From assembly GCF_003205515.1 (NCBI RefSeq), contig NZ_KZ826481.1:290660-354659 (forward strand): 64,000 nt of DNA. The letters are read 5' to 3'. Under the pieces are notes generated by a model, which was given only the letters and a program-made list of their open reading frames with translations, did not search any database and was not told where the DNA came from. This document shows positions 32,654 to 38,482 of the stretch, piece by piece; the first letter of the stretch is position 1, and every line of letters begins with the position of its first letter. This DNA comes from Litorivita pollutaquae. Its GTDB lineage: Bacteria; Pseudomonadota; Alphaproteobacteria; Rhodobacterales; Rhodobacteraceae. The position numbers were made by a program, and so were the translations under genes.

Positions 32654-34906
32654 TCACCCTTCGATACGTGTGAGATCCGCCACCGACAGGCAGATGGTGC
32701 GAATGCGGCTCAACAGGTTCAGCCGGTTGCGCCGTATCACCTCGTTGTCGGTATTGACCTGCACCGCCTCGAAAAATCCATCGATCGGACCACGCAGCGC
32801 CGCCATGCCTTGCATCGCGGATGCAAAATCTTCGGCCTCGATGGCAGCAGAAATCGACGCCCCCGCCGTGTCGAGCGCTGCAAAGAGATCGCGCTCGGCC
32901 TCGGTTTCGGCAAATTTCACATCCGCCCCGTATTCATAGCTGACGCCGTCTTTGTCTTCGGCTTGGGTGAGAATGTTGTTGGCGCGCTTGAAGCCCTGCA
33001 ACAGGTTCGCCCCATCATCGGTGGCCAAAACGTCGGACAAGGCACCGGCGCGTTTGACCAAAAGCGTCAAATCGTCGTTGCCGGGCATGGCAATGCAAGC
33101 GTCAATCACATCATGGCGCAGGCCCTGATCGCGCAAATAGACCTTCAGCCGGTCGTGGAAAAACGCCAAAAGATCCGCCGACAGATCCGGCATCCGGTTG
33201 CCAAGATCCCCCAAGAGCGATCCTTTGCCAGTGTCCGGCGCATCGTTCTTGCCATCGAGTTTTGCGATCACCGTGCGGAAGGCCGCACCAAAAACGCCGT
33301 GATCGGCAATCGCCTCGAGAACATCCTCAAGCGCCGCCATCTCGGCGCCATCGGCGCCGTCACGGCTAAGGTTGATCTTGTGCTTCATCAACTGGCTGTC
33401 GATGAAGTGATCCAGGTTCAGGCGCAAATCGCCGGTCAGAATGATGCGAATGACGCCAAGCGCGGCGCGGCGCAACGCATAGGGGTCTTTTGATCCGGTG
33501 GGTTTCTCGTCGATCGCCCAAAAGCCGGTCAATGTGTCCAGTTTATCGGCCAAAGCTACGGTGCGCGCGACCGCGCCCTCCGGCACATCGTCCGAAGGAC
33601 CAAGGGGCGAATAATGCTGTTCGCAGGCCTGCGCAACCTCATCGGGCAATCCGGCGGCGGCGGCATAATACCGCCCCATAAGCCCTTGAAGTTCTGGAAA
33701 TTCATAAACCATTTCCGAGCTGAGGTCGGCCTTGGCAACCTCGGCGGCTTGCATCGCCAGATCCGTGTCGGCGCCAACAGAAGGTGCCAATTCGCCGGAC
33801 AGGGATTTGATCCGTGCGATACGGTCCGCTTGGCTGCCCAATTGGTTTTGGAAGGTCACATTGGACAATTGTTCGGTCCATGTCTGCATACCCGTCCGCG
33901 CCACGCGCAGATCATTTTCCCAAAAGAATTTCGCATCCGACAGGCGCGCGAACAAAACCTTCTGGTTGCCCGCCAGAACCGTCGCACCATTGTCCGCCGT
34001 TTCGCGGTTGGCGACGGTGATAAACCGCTCGATCCGGCCGGTCTTGGGGTTTTTCACCGAGAAGAATTTTTGGTGCTCTTTCATCGAGGTGCGCAACACC
34101 TCAGGCGGCAGATCCAGAAAATCCTCGGCGATCTCGCCCATCAAGACCACCGGCCATTCGACCAATCCGGCAACCTCGGCCAAAAGCCCTTTATCTTCCA
34201 CCACTTCAAGACCATTGGCAAAGGCTTGATTGGTCGCATCATGCCAAATATGTTCGGCACGCTCTTTGGCGTCCAACATCACATAGGCGCGTTTGAGCCG
34301 CGCGGCATAATCCTCAAAGGACGTGACGGTAAAGCGGCCCCTGGACATGAAACGATGCCCTTCGGTGGTGTTGCCAGCTTTGATCCCGTCGATCTCCATC
34401 GGCACCACTTCGCTGCCTGCCTCATCCGTTAAAATACATAGGATCGAATGCAAGGGACGCACCCATTTCAGGCTACCGGCCCCCCAACGCATGGATTTCG
34501 GCCAAGGAAAATTGCGGATCGTGTCTTCAAGAACCCCGGCGATGATCTCTGCGGCAGGGCGGCCCTTTTTGGCGATCACGGCATAGAAGACCTTGCCTTT
34601 TTTCTCGTCGCGTTCTTCCAGATCCTCACGTGAGACACCTGCACCGCGCAAGAACCCTTCGATGGCTTTTTGTGGCGCATCAATGCGCGGGCCTTTGCGT
34701 TCTTCGCGGGTGTCGGGGCTTTGTGCAAGCAGGCCCTCGATCGCCAATGTCAAACGGCGCGGCGTCGAAAATGCCGCCGCATGCGCATAGGTCAATCCGG
34801 CCTCGACCAAACCGTCGGTGACCTTTTTGCGCAGATCCTCGGCGGCACGGGCTTGCATACGTGCGGGGATTTCTTCGGAGAAAAGTTCAATCAGAAGATC
34901 AGGCAT
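32654..34906 (-). CDS. glyS: Glycine--tRNA ligase beta subunit
   Basis: This is the beta chain of the bacterial heterotetrameric glycyl-tRNA synthetase, which together with GlyQ charges tRNA-Gly. The 750-residue protein has the family start MPDLLIELFSEEIPARMQAR, and segments such as RRLTLAIEGLLAQSPDTREE, ISLVxEWPVVLMGxF-like LAEVAGLVEWPVVLMGEIAE, and the terminal HD/anticodon-like region ending NRLNLLSRIRTICLSVADLT. Its start shares one base with the stop of the small gene upstream (TAATG), so translation is coupled. It is the third member of the glyQ-small gene-glyS unit. Confidence 0.96.
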   Translation of the reverse strand: MPDLLIELFSEEIPARMQARAAEDLRKKVTDGLVEAGLTYAHAAAFSTPRRLTLAIEGLLAQSPDTREERKGPRIDAPQKAIEGFLRGAGVSREDLEERDEKKGKVFYAVIAKKGRPAAEIIAGVLEDTIRNFPWPKSMRWGAGSLKWVRPLHSILCILTDEAGSEVVPMEIDGIKAGNTTEGHRFMSRGRFTVTSFEDYAARLKRAYVMLDAKERAEHIWHDATNQAFANGLEVVEDKGLLAEVAGLVEWPVVLMGEIAEDFLDLPPEVLRTSMKEHQKFFSVKNPKTGRIERFITVANRETADNGATVLAGNQKVLFARLSDAKFFWENDLRVARTGMQTWTEQLSNVTFQNQLGSQADRIARIKSLSGELAPSVGADTDLAMQAAEVAKADLSSEMVYEFPELQGLMGRYYAAAAGLPDEVAQACEQHYSPLGPSDDVPEGAVARTVALADKLDTLTGFWAIDEKPTGSKDPYALRRAALGVIRIILTGDLRLNLDHFIDSQLMKHKINLSRDGADGAEMAALEDVLEAIADHGVFGAAFRTVIAKLDGKNDAPDTGKGSLLGDLGNRMPDLSADLLAFFHDRLKVYLRDQGLRHDVIDACIAMPGNDDLTLLVKRAGALSDVLATDDGANLLQGFKRANNILTQAEDKDGVSYEYGADVKFAETEAERDLFAALDTAGASISAAIEAEDFASAMQGMAALRGPIDGFFEAVQVNTDNEVIRRNRLNLLSRIRTICLSVADLTRIEG

Positions 34907-35433
34907 TATTTATAGCTTTCCGGAACAGGAGGGCAATCGTCGGGTGCGGCTTTGCCGTTGAACACCGCTTCGCCGCAATGGTTGATCTGTTGCCAGACAT
35001 AGCCGCGGCCATCGGGCAGCACGGCAACCACGCGGTCGATGCCATAGTGGATATTTTCGGTGCCAAGAAAAGCGACCGCGTCGCCGTCCTCGATGGATTT
35101 TCCGATCTCGTCGGCATCAAAGCAATCGAACCACGGCGGCGCGATGTTCGGCTCGGCGCTCTCGTAAATCTCGTAGGTTTCGGTGAGCATGGCCTGGCTT
35201 AACCCGGTGGTGAAGCAGGCGCGATACCGGATCGGCGAGCTGTCACTATCGATGGCTTGGAACCCCTCGTAGAGGATCGGTTCGGCCACGCCGGTCGCAA
35301 CAGAGGTCATCACCACGTCTTCGCTGCCATTGGCGGCGACCTCGTCGTAGTAATGATAGACCTGAAGATAATAAACGGCGGCGCCGGCGGCGAGTGCTGA
35401 AATCACGATAAGACCTGCGAGAAATTTTCCCAT
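34906..35433 (-). CDS. Small membrane-anchored protein between glyQ and glyS
   Basis: This is a 175-residue protein with one N-terminal helix (MGKFLAGLIVISALAAGAAV followed by YYL) and a soluble rest that should face the periplasm. It contains SSPIRYRACFTTGLSQAMLT, PPWFDCFDADEIGKSIEDGD and GYVWQQINHCGEAVFNGKAA, with four cysteines that could pair. I believe it belongs to a Rhodobacterales-specific DUF family that sits at this place, but I cannot name a function. The ATG at 35433 lies one base after the glyQ stop and its stop overlaps the glyS start by one base, so all three are translated as a block. Confidence 0.8.
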   Translation of the reverse strand: MGKFLAGLIVISALAAGAAVYYLQVYHYYDEVAANGSEDVVMTSVATGVAEPILYEGFQAIDSDSSPIRYRACFTTGLSQAMLTETYEIYESAEPNIAPPWFDCFDADEIGKSIEDGDAVAFLGTENIHYGIDRVVAVLPDGRGYVWQQINHCGEAVFNGKAAPDDCPPVPESYK

Positions 35434-35434
35434 G

Positions 35435-36376
35435 TTATGCGCCCTGCTTTGCGGTGAAGCCGCCCGCGTCGGTTTGCACGAAGGCATCGGCGCAGGCTTT
35501 GGCCAATGTGCGCACGCGGCCGATGTAACCTTGGCGTTCAGTGACGGAAATCACGCCGCGCGCATCCAGAAGGTTAAAAATGTGGCTGGCTTTGATACAT
35601 TGATCATAGGCCGGATGCGCCATGATGATGCGTTTACCGGTCTTGGGATCCTCGGCGGGCTGCTCCAGAATGGATTGGCACTCGGCTTCGGCCTCTTCGA
35701 AGTGGCGCAACAAAACATCGGTATTGGCCACGTCGAAATTCCAACGGCTGTATTCGCCTTCGGTTTGGCGGAACACATCCCCGTATGTCAAAGGCGTGGG
35801 CGATTGCGGATCGTTGTAGGGCATGTCCATCACATGATCGACGCCCAAAACATACATCGCAAGGCGCTCTAACCCATAGGTCAATTCGCCCGACACCGGA
35901 TGGCAATCATGGCCGCCGACCTGTTGGAAATAGGTGAATTGCGACACTTCCATCCCGTCGCACCAGACCTCCCATCCAAGGCCCCAAGCGCCCAAAGTCG
36001 GGCTTTCCCAATCGTCCTCGACAAAGCGGATGTCGTGCAGATCCATGTCGATGCCGATGGCTTCAAGGCTGCCCAAGTAGAGGGCTTGCAAATCCGGCGG
36101 GCTTGGTTTGATGACGACTTGATATTGATAGTAATGCTGCATCCGGTTGGGATTTTCGCCGTAACGCCCATCGGTCGGGCGGCGCGAAGGTTGCACATAG
36201 GCGGCGGCCCAAGGACGCGAGCCAAGGCTGCGCAATGTGGTGGCCGGGTGGAAGGTGCCCGCCCCCACTTCCATGTCATAAGGTTGCATCACCGCACATC
36301 CGCGCGCCGCCCAATAGGATTGCAAACGCAGGATAATCTCTTGAAAACTGCGGGGTTTATCGGTGCTGGTTGCCAT
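35435..36376 (-). CDS. glyQ: Glycine--tRNA ligase alpha subunit
   Basis: This is the catalytic class II alpha chain of glycyl-tRNA synthetase, 313 residues. Class II motifs and family blocks are visible: the start [20 protein letters not shown], then [60 protein letters not shown] and [18 protein letters not shown]. The ATG at 36376 is chosen over the long frame to 36460, which adds a Pro/Arg-rich tail foreign to the family. It opens a three-gene unit with the small membrane protein and glyS. Its 288-base upstream gap also holds the divergent promoter of the pseudoprotease gene. Confidence 0.97.
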
Positions 36377-36664
36377 AGGTATCGGTCCCTGCTTCTCATG
36401 ATCCACGGCCCGATCGCGGCGCGGAGGGGCATCTTGCGGGGGCAGGCACGCGCCGGTCATGGCATGCGGTCCTGCCGGTTATAACGGCGCTGGTTGGGGC
36501 ACGAACCGCAGGTCCGGTGCCCTTAAATCGCGCGCCATTCCTACGGCTCCCTCGCGGCGGGGTCAATTGCACGCTCACGCATTATTTGGATGCGCTTGGC
36601 GTCAAATTTGGTATGACACCCGCAGCGAGACCAAAAACACGATTGATAAGGGCGACAGGGCAAG

Positions 36665-38482
36665 ATGATCCGGCAATTTTTGAATACCTCTTTCAAACCT
36701 GCAGCAGTGGTTCTCACGCTGCTGATGACGGGCCCATTTGCGCCCCTGAGCGCCACAGCGCAAAGCAGCCAAAGCCAAAGCGCCAATGTCGCGTGGGTGC
36801 AAATCGAGGCACAACCGAACCTCAACAGCGCGCAAGAAGCAATCCGCGGCTACGCTGGGCGGCTGCCCGATGTGAACGGGTTCTCCTTGGGACAGGGATG
36901 GTACGCCATTGTTCTGGGCCCCTACAGCCGCGAGGATGCGGCGCAAGTCTTGCGCGTATACCGCCGCGAAGCGCAAATCCCCCGCGACAGTTTCATCACC
37001 TTCACCAATCAATTCCGTCAACAATTTTGGCCGGTGGGCACGGATTTCCTGACCAACCCGCCCCGCAGCACTCTCACGGATCAAACCGCCGAGACGCAAG
37101 AAAGTGCGCCCCAGACAGAGATCACAAGCCAAGCGGCCCCCGCGCCGAAACCGCCGGCCCCGGACGAAACCAAAAACGAGGCGCTGCGCAATGAACGTGC
37201 GCTCGACCGCACGGCCCGGATGCAATTGCAATCCATGTTGAAATGGGCCGGTTTCTACGACAGCGGCATCGACGGTGCCTTTGGTCGCGGCACCCGCGCC
37301 TCGATGGCGGCATGGCAAGAGGTCAACGGTTTCGAGGTCACCGGCGTGATGACGACATTGCAACGCGCCGCCCTTCTCAAACAATATAACGCCATCCTCG
37401 ACGGTATGGATTTGCGCATGGTGCGCGACGAAGGCGCGGGCGTGGAAATGATGATACCGCTCGGCGTGGTCAACTTTGATCGCTATGAACCACCCTTTGG
37501 CCATTACACCGCCAAAGGCGACCTCGATGCGCAGGTTCTGACCATCTCGCAGCGCGGCGATCAAGCCACGCTTTGGGGCTTGTATGATATCATGCAGACG
37601 CTTGAAATCGTGCCGACGTCCGGCCCGCGCGAGCGCAAGAAAGACAGCTTTGTCCTGATCGGCGAGGATGGGCATATGGTGTCCCATACCGAAGCCTACC
37701 TGCGCGACGGAATGGTCAAAGGCTTTACCCTGATCTGGCCGGCCGGCGATGAGGAACGCCGTCGCCGCGTGCTCGGCGAGATGAAGGCGAGTTTCACCAC
37801 CTTCGGCGCGGCGCTTGATCCGGCGGCGGGCGACAATGGCACACAGAGCATTGATCTGTTGTCAGGTCTGGAAATCCGTAAACCCAAGCTGGCGCGCTCG
37901 GGGTTCTATATCGACACCAGCGGCACCGTCGTGACAACGGCCGAGGCTGTCGCCGGTTGCGCGCGGATCACGCTTGAAGATGACATCGATGCCAGCGTGG
38001 TCGCCACCGACAGCGAAAACGGTATTGCCATCCTGCGTCCGCACGAACCGCTTGCGCCGATCTCCACCGCCCGCTTTCAACGCGCTGTGCCGCGGTTGCA
38101 ATCGGATGTGGCAGTTTCAGGATACAGCTTTGAAGGCGTATTGAACGGCCCCACCCTGACCTATGGCACATTGGCCGACATTCGCGGTCTGCGCGGCGAA
38201 ACCAGCCTCAAGCGCCTCGCGCTCAACGCCCTGCCCGGCGATGCCGGCGGTCCGGTTTTTGATGCAGGCGGCGCGGTGCTTGGCATGCTGTTGCCGGCGA
38301 CCAACGGCACGCAAAAACTGCCCGAAGGGGTCAGCTTTGTCGCCGATGGCAGCGCGGTTCTGGCGTTGCTTCAACGCGAAGGGATCAATGCACAGACAAC
38401 CGATGCTTTGGGGACGGTCGATCCTGTGGACCTCAGCACCAGCGCCAGCGGCATGACCGTTTTGGTGAGCTGCTGGGAGTAA
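36665..38482 (+). CDS. Exported peptidoglycan-binding protein with inactive trypsin-like domain
   Basis: This 605-residue protein has a signal peptide (MIRQFLNTSFKPAAVVLTLL, cleavage near TAQ), a SPOR-like region (about 41-130, with WVQIEAQPNLNSAQEAI and GWYAIVLGPYSREDA), a Pro-rich linker, and a PG_binding_1 domain (about 186-240, LQSMLKWAGFYDSGIDGAFG). A trypsin-like domain fills about 410-575. That last domain has lost the triad: the His site reads TTAEAVAGC (Glu427), the Asp site SENGIAILR (Gly453), and the Ser site GDAGGPVFD (Ala527), while the GGP turn and fold segments are kept. It is probably a periplasmic binding or scaffold protein at the cell wall. It is monocistronic, with a terminator after it. 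Confidence 0.85.
   Translation: MIRQFLNTSFKPAAVVLTLLMTGPFAPLSATAQSSQSQSANVAWVQIEAQPNLNSAQEAIRGYAGRLPDVNGFSLGQGWYAIVLGPYSREDAAQVLRVYRREAQIPRDSFITFTNQFRQQFWPVGTDFLTNPPRSTLTDQTAETQESAPQTEITSQAAPAPKPPAPDETKNEALRNERALDRTARMQLQSMLKWAGFYDSGIDGAFGRGTRASMAAWQEVNGFEVTGVMTTLQRAALLKQYNAILDGMDLRMVRDEGAGVEMMIPLGVVNFDRYEPPFGHYTAKGDLDAQVLTISQRGDQATLWGLYDIMQTLEIVPTSGPRERKKDSFVLIGEDGHMVSHTEAYLRDGMVKGFTLIWPAGDEERRRRVLGEMKASFTTFGAALDPAAGDNGTQSIDLLSGLEIRKPKLARSGFYIDTSGTVVTTAEAVAGCARITLEDDIDASVVATDSENGIAILRPHEPLAPISTARFQRAVPRLQSDVAVSGYSFEGVLNGPTLTYGTLADIRGLRGETSLKRLALNALPGDAGGPVFDAGGAVLGMLLPATNGTQKLPEGVSFVADGSAVLALLQREGINAQTTDALGTVDPVDLSTSASGMTVLVSCWE

Follow-up and report, generated by a model that had tools for sequence, protein, structure and literature searches.

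Trypsin-like pseudoproteases are already known as a kind of bacterial protein, MamO being an example. In the available text of its report, MamO is presented as an alphaproteobacterial protein with a Trypsin_2 fold and a degenerate triad fixed in its clade, which activates MamE-dependent proteolysis without catalysis of its own and binds metal; its catalytic residues are properly placed save for a Thr substitution, and a Glu occupies position 193 (PMC4794232). The S1C domain of RsgI9 from Clostridium thermocellum is likewise described, in the accessible part of its paper, as protease-like and able to bind cellulose (PMC12203970). Among catalytically competent proteins of related fold, the periplasmic protease MarP processes the hydrolase RipA, according to the available portion of PMC7554673. 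Of the 966 proteins in a survey from 2008, 42 were counted as inactive serine protease homologues; the protein studied here is not described in the available text of that survey (PMC2605481).

The window analysed here is a stretch of 64,000 nucleotides from Litorivita pollutaquae, and the gene under study (36665–38482, + strand) encodes a protein of 605 residues, hereafter the window protein. The sequence-only reading of this DNA had proposed that it is an exported, maintained pseudoprotease in which the His, Asp and Ser of a trypsin-like domain are replaced by Glu427, Gly453 and Ala527. A literature search, with most subscription papers outside its scope, returned no paper on this protein, and none on its domain layout, on its presence in most genera of its family, or on the second group of related proteins presented below.

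Domain architecture of the window protein

The AlphaFold model of the 605-residue protein, built on 53 aligned proteins, displayed a mean pLDDT of 88.7 and four folded parts, namely a SPOR-like, a peptidoglycan-binding, an alpha/beta (residues 246–385) and a trypsin-like part. They are preceded by a putative signal peptide at about residues 1–32 (36665–36760, +), recognised by eye with cleavage after ATA, model confidence being low at residues 1–11 and 18–39. The SPOR-like domain (residues 43–122; 36791–37030, +) is assigned from its Pfam SPOR score, 20.5 bits over residues 43–96 against a cut-off of 21, and from the alternating strands and helices of the model; SPOR is matched in 23 of the 53 members (Pfam, E ≤ 0.01), with a best value of 6.9e-9. 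For the peptidoglycan-binding domain (residues 169–245; 37169–37399, +), PG_binding_1 (PF01471) is matched at residues 183–237 with an E-value of 3.8e-11 and 43.4 bits against a cut-off of 23, and in 53/53 members at the same Pfam threshold. The attachment of the trypsin-like domain to peptidoglycan-binding segments, as first read from the sequence, is supported by these Pfam matches.

The alpha/beta domain at residues 246–385 (37400–37819, +) is an addition to that reading. When predicted alone it reached a pLDDT of 92.9, and it matched 2xb3 in Foldseek with an E-value of 1.7e-5. Structural superposition gave a Z of 11.6 with spinach PsbP 2vu4 (rmsd 3.5, 130 aligned residues), and Z values of 11.2–11.6 for PsbP, 9.7 for yeast Mog1 and 8.4 for LpqN, consistent with a predicted PsbP/Mog1/LpqN-like domain. 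No PsbP-type Pfam model was found, either for the 605-residue protein (E ≤ 10) or among the matched families of the 53 members (E ≤ 0.01).

The trypsin-like domain, of chymotrypsin fold and without a catalytic triad, comprises residues 406–605 (37880–38479, +) and runs to the C-terminus, no PDZ domain being detected in a Pfam scan at E ≤ 10. Trypsin_2 is matched over residues 412–541 with an E-value of 2.1e-13 and 51.7 bits against a cut-off of 27.6, and model residues ~406–575 superpose on DegS, HtrA1 and MarP with Z values of 18.7–20.3, so that the fold landmarks noticed in the letters correspond to a predicted trypsin-like fold. With the DegS/HtrA (S1C) proteins the fold is shared at a Z of about 19–20 over residues 406–575, but the window protein lacks both their triad and a Pfam PDZ domain, and carries wall-binding and PsbP-like domains instead. 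With MarP (Rv3671c), also periplasmic, superposition gives a Z of 18.8, an rmsd of 2.3 and 30% identity over 159 residues; MarP, however, has an active triad. NCBIfam yields weak partial matches only for the window protein, the best trypsin-related one being that to the MarP family (NF033740), 32 bits against a cut-off of 250.

Loss of the catalytic triad

In profile alignments to chains of HtrA1 and MarP, the positions of His, Asp and Ser are taken by Glu427 (37943–37945, +), Gly453 (38021–38023, +) and Ala527 (38243–38245, +), respectively, and the same columns are recovered by alignment with eight relatives that have His, Asp and Ser (H/D/S), in agreement with the assignments of the sequence-only reading. 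Where an active S1 serine protease has its His-Asp-Ser triad, the window protein therefore has E427/G453/A527.

Fixation of these replacements was followed in an alignment of 89 proteins, formed by the window protein and 88 loci above 100 bits that came from best matches, 30 picked low-scoring matched genomes, unmatched genomes, and two named records, Pseudosulfitobacter koreensis and Vannielia litorea, both Rhodobacterales. The trypsin domain is reached in 86 of the 89 rows; the remaining ones run to a contig end (L065), represent the first of two frames (L086) or genuinely lack the domain (L089), and in one further row (L072) the match stops at residue 488, which makes the columns of the Ser and the last Cys unreliable there. 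Over the 86 rows, the His position is occupied by Glu in 44, Asp in 15, Ala in 10, Gln in 10 and others in the rest, and by His in none; the Asp position by Gly in 73 and Asp in 3; and the Ser position by Ala in 53, Val in 14 or 15 depending on the alignment, Ser in 4 and Thr in 4. Chance is not an issue here, since none of the 86 proteins has a His at 427 and none holds two of the three triad residues.

Compensation by other residues was also considered. Within residues 396–605 no column has His in at least half of the 86 rows, the commonest conserved Ser is S412, in an SGF motif common to the active relatives, and an alternative triad is ruled out, since the domain has neither a His that is conserved nor a Ser/Lys/Cys set that would serve. 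That the protein is still an active protease with an unusual catalytic set is consistent with the retention of the oxyanion Gly and of the GD-x-GGP loop around Ala527, G525 (position 193) being Gly in 81/86 rows. Nonetheless, with a His position that is mostly acidic, a Ser position mostly Ala or Val, and neither a conserved His nor a well-placed conserved nucleophile (S412 belonging to the motif of the active relatives too), we consider this extremely improbable. On the alignments, the trypsin-like domain is a pseudoprotease without the residues needed for proteolysis.

Cysteine pair, ancestry and selection

Cys432 (37958–37960, +; 86/86 rows) and Cys603 (38471–38473, +), the latter near the C-terminus, are invariant across the aligned proteins and are the sole cysteines of the window protein. 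Because the protein has only these two and both are invariant, a Cys432–Cys603 disulfide appears likely. MarP also has a C-terminal cysteine, but its other cysteine precedes the catalytic His, while that of the window protein follows the corresponding position.

The same two cysteines, together with H, D and S, are found in 8/8 active relatives (L030, L091, L093, L095, L102, L146, L147, L154), and active cysteine-pair relatives also make up 14 of the 15 inspected loci from outside the family in a class-wide search, one of them (L194) being the same place as L146. These alphaproteobacterial relatives share the cysteine pair and the domain ends with the window protein; on the contrary, their H/D/S set is intact, their loci have no glyQ in the flanks, and no PsbP-like domain is detected in them by profile. 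The active group as a whole (the eight above, L180–L188 and L190–L194) displays a conserved Cys downstream of the catalytic His, an extreme C-terminal Cys and varied N-terminal parts.

In three trees a branch supported at 100/100 separates the dead proteins from the rest. Because the eight related proteases keep the cysteine pair and an intact triad, the ancestor was probably active, and the simplest reading is a single triad loss from an active cysteine-pair protease. Two fixed residues distinguish the dead clade from the active relatives: Arg517 (38213–38215, +), fixed only in the dead clade, is present in 76/86 of its rows and in 0/8 active relatives, and D526 occurs in 81/86 dead-clade rows, compared with N or S in the active relatives.

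Ratios of dN/dS were estimated for 10 pairs among five species of one genus, giving 0.10–0.37 for the trypsin domain versus 0.04–0.14 for the peptidoglycan-binding domain. These values indicate that the trypsin domain is constrained by purifying selection, though less so than the peptidoglycan-binding domain. A decayed copy is ruled out, the orthologues being open, syntenic and under purifying selection. A subtler possibility is that the trypsin fold is an inert remnant which persists only because the protein needs it for folding or stability; in line with this, dN/dS is highest in the trypsin domain among the folded domains for most of the ten pairs, reaching 0.37, and the domain is missing in two genomes of the family (G312 and G023, see below). 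Invariant cysteines, a single clade with full support and residues fixed specifically in that clade, as seen over 86 proteins, nevertheless exceed what a remnant would need, and make such a leftover improbable.

Distribution and gene neighbourhood

A protein search over one genome per genus of the same family (E ≤ 1e-40) recovered orthologues in 335 of 394 genomes. The gene is adjoined by glyQ (glycyl-tRNA synthetase alpha; 35435–36460, −), a divergent neighbour that serves as a synteny anchor and stands outside any mechanism proposed here, in 80 of 88 related loci, or 82 of 90 when the window and a duplicate locus are counted. Of the eight loci without it, one (L008) comes from a single-contig genome and the rest, judged by coordinates only, look cut by contig ends. 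Among the window genes used as queries, the recurring neighbours are glyQ, a 193-residue open reading frame and trkH, and none of them hints at function. The 193-residue protein (34906–35487, −) lies between glyS and glyQ and is present in 56/90 related loci. A region of ~200 bp (36461–36664) lies upstream of both glyQ and the pseudoprotease gene in an arrangement kept family-wide, and is possibly a divergent promoter.

Orthologues with an active triad were sought in the 30 picked low-scoring matched genomes and in 20 of the 59 unmatched ones. No glyQ-linked orthologue with an active triad was found in them, and the H/D/S proteins present are distant relatives placed elsewhere in the genome. 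This result, together with the lack of a conserved alternative triad, upholds the proposal of a maintained pseudoprotease. In a set of 20 genomes (18 unmatched, plus G312 and G143) glyQ was found in 17, and a relative stands beside it only in G312, G143 and G023; 14 glyQ loci were therefore seen without one within 1.5 kb. The G143 copy (L065) extends to the contig end. The copy in G312 (L089) looks complete and stops before the trypsin domain, an unrelated gene following, and that in G023 (L103), beside glyQ and trkH, also misses the domain. Elsewhere in its genome, G023 has a separate H/D/S protease (L030). Considering these two copies without the domain and its faster evolution relative to the peptidoglycan-binding domain, the trypsin domain is dispensable in some lineages.

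The genome of L. pollutaquae encodes five other Trypsin_2 proteins, and the four inspected are all H/D/S. Two Trypsin_2 genes (L137 and L140) are adjacent on contig C6 of this genome, and the one read is H/D/S. Such active proteins, together with the precedent of MamE activation without catalysis in the available text on MamO (PMC4794232), would fit an allosteric partner of MamO type, switching an active periplasmic HtrA/Deg protease on or off. The conserved neighbours are nonetheless glyQ and trkH, with no linked active trypsin gene, and the Trypsin_2 proteins read in the genome are not close sisters of the window protein. The MamO-type di-histidine is missing as well, no column of residues 396–605 having His in half or more of the 86 rows. 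The two proteins do have in common the fold, the Alphaproteobacteria as hosts and a triad whose degeneration is constant throughout a clade; in contrast to MamO, the window protein has lost all three residues, keeps Gly193 and carries wall-binding domains. A MamO-like partnership is accordingly judged unlikely.

A second pseudoprotease group in another family

In a class-wide sample of 385 genomes, one protein from another alphaproteobacterial family (L189) matches the window protein across its peptidoglycan-binding, PsbP-like and trypsin parts, with His and Asp missing and Ser present. Relatives of it occur within its own family in 25 of 60 genomes at E ≤ 1e-20 (L189, L195–L218); 25 loci were returned, and leaving out L219, with no alignment over the trypsin part, gave 24 proteins including L189. 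None of these 24 has a His at the catalytic position, and the PsbP-like profile matches 23 of them at E < 1e-4 and the other one (L196) at 0.0007. Among 289 genomes of the class this profile is confined to the two families (5 genomes matched). The tree relating the two pseudoprotease groups is unsure because of long branches, and a shared origin, with an AU p of 0.526, is neither shown nor rejected.

Degenerate LytM proteins are known as regulators of amidases. The two groups might represent a protease counterpart of them, as an ancient alphaproteobacterial class of wall-tethered peptidoglycan-binding/PsbP-like/dead trypsin proteins fixed in two family-level lineages, whose disulfide-stapled cleft would regulate septal peptidoglycan enzymes; we put this forward as tentative and rather doubtful.

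Proposed role

At the level of sequence and predicted structure, the data establish how the domains are arranged, that the triad is lost clade-wide and that fold and cysteine pair persist, that the dead proteins form a single clade, and that purifying selection acts on them. Because most genera of the family have retained this dead enzyme, it is probably a binding or regulatory module and not a protease. We thus favour, with moderate confidence, an exported, wall-bound pseudoprotease that would derive from an active cysteine-pair protease and would use a non-cutting pocket to recruit or switch an envelope enzyme. The available text of a study on Dinoroseobacter shibae vesicles (PMC7901474) states that denuded peptidoglycan is the target of SPOR domains and links these domains to cell division. 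It also mentions a SPOR protein, Dshi_0924, termed an outer-membrane lipoprotein, for which no link to the pseudoprotease gene was found. In the window protein, (i) the SPOR-like and peptidoglycan-binding domains would anchor the protein to the wall, preferentially where the glycan is denuded, as at division sites, (ii) the trypsin domain, presumably stapled by Cys432–Cys603 and with the Gly193/GD-x-GGP loop intact, would offer a non-cutting binding pocket, (iii) this pocket might capture a peptide or a partner protein, glycan being the next choice, and (iv) capture might recruit or switch an envelope enzyme, peptidoglycan hydrolases and periplasmic proteases being examples.

If glycan were the ligand, the dead trypsin domain would act as a third wall-binding domain docking to peptidoglycan or a polysaccharide. 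The remaining protein already has wall-binding domains, and the cellulose-binding ability described for the RsgI9 S1C domain in the accessible part of PMC12203970 provides a precedent, its structure (7sjy) being among the structure matches, with a Z of 18.5 to the trypsin domain, and being likewise a binding domain of an envelope protein. RsgI9 itself is a membrane anti-sigma factor from another phylum, with NTF2 as partner domain. In the window protein, on the other hand, neither a conserved aromatic platform nor a carbohydrate site was apparent, and conservation is centred on the old GD-x-GGP loop and the new Arg517, which suits peptide or protein binding equally or better. A glycan-binding module is on this balance an unlikely solution.

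By analogy, a wall-tethered recruiter or regulator is favoured because MamO and the RsgI9 S1C domain reuse such folds and MarP has a wall role; the suggestion of a wall-bound sensor or protease regulator, already made from the sequence, thus appears plausible. That most genera of the family retain a dead protease combined with cell-wall-binding domains points to a part in envelope growth, either regulatory or structural, which the label 'serine protease' would mask. It would also provide a testable case of enzyme-to-regulator conversion in bacteria outside the magnetotactic ones, with living active relatives for comparison.
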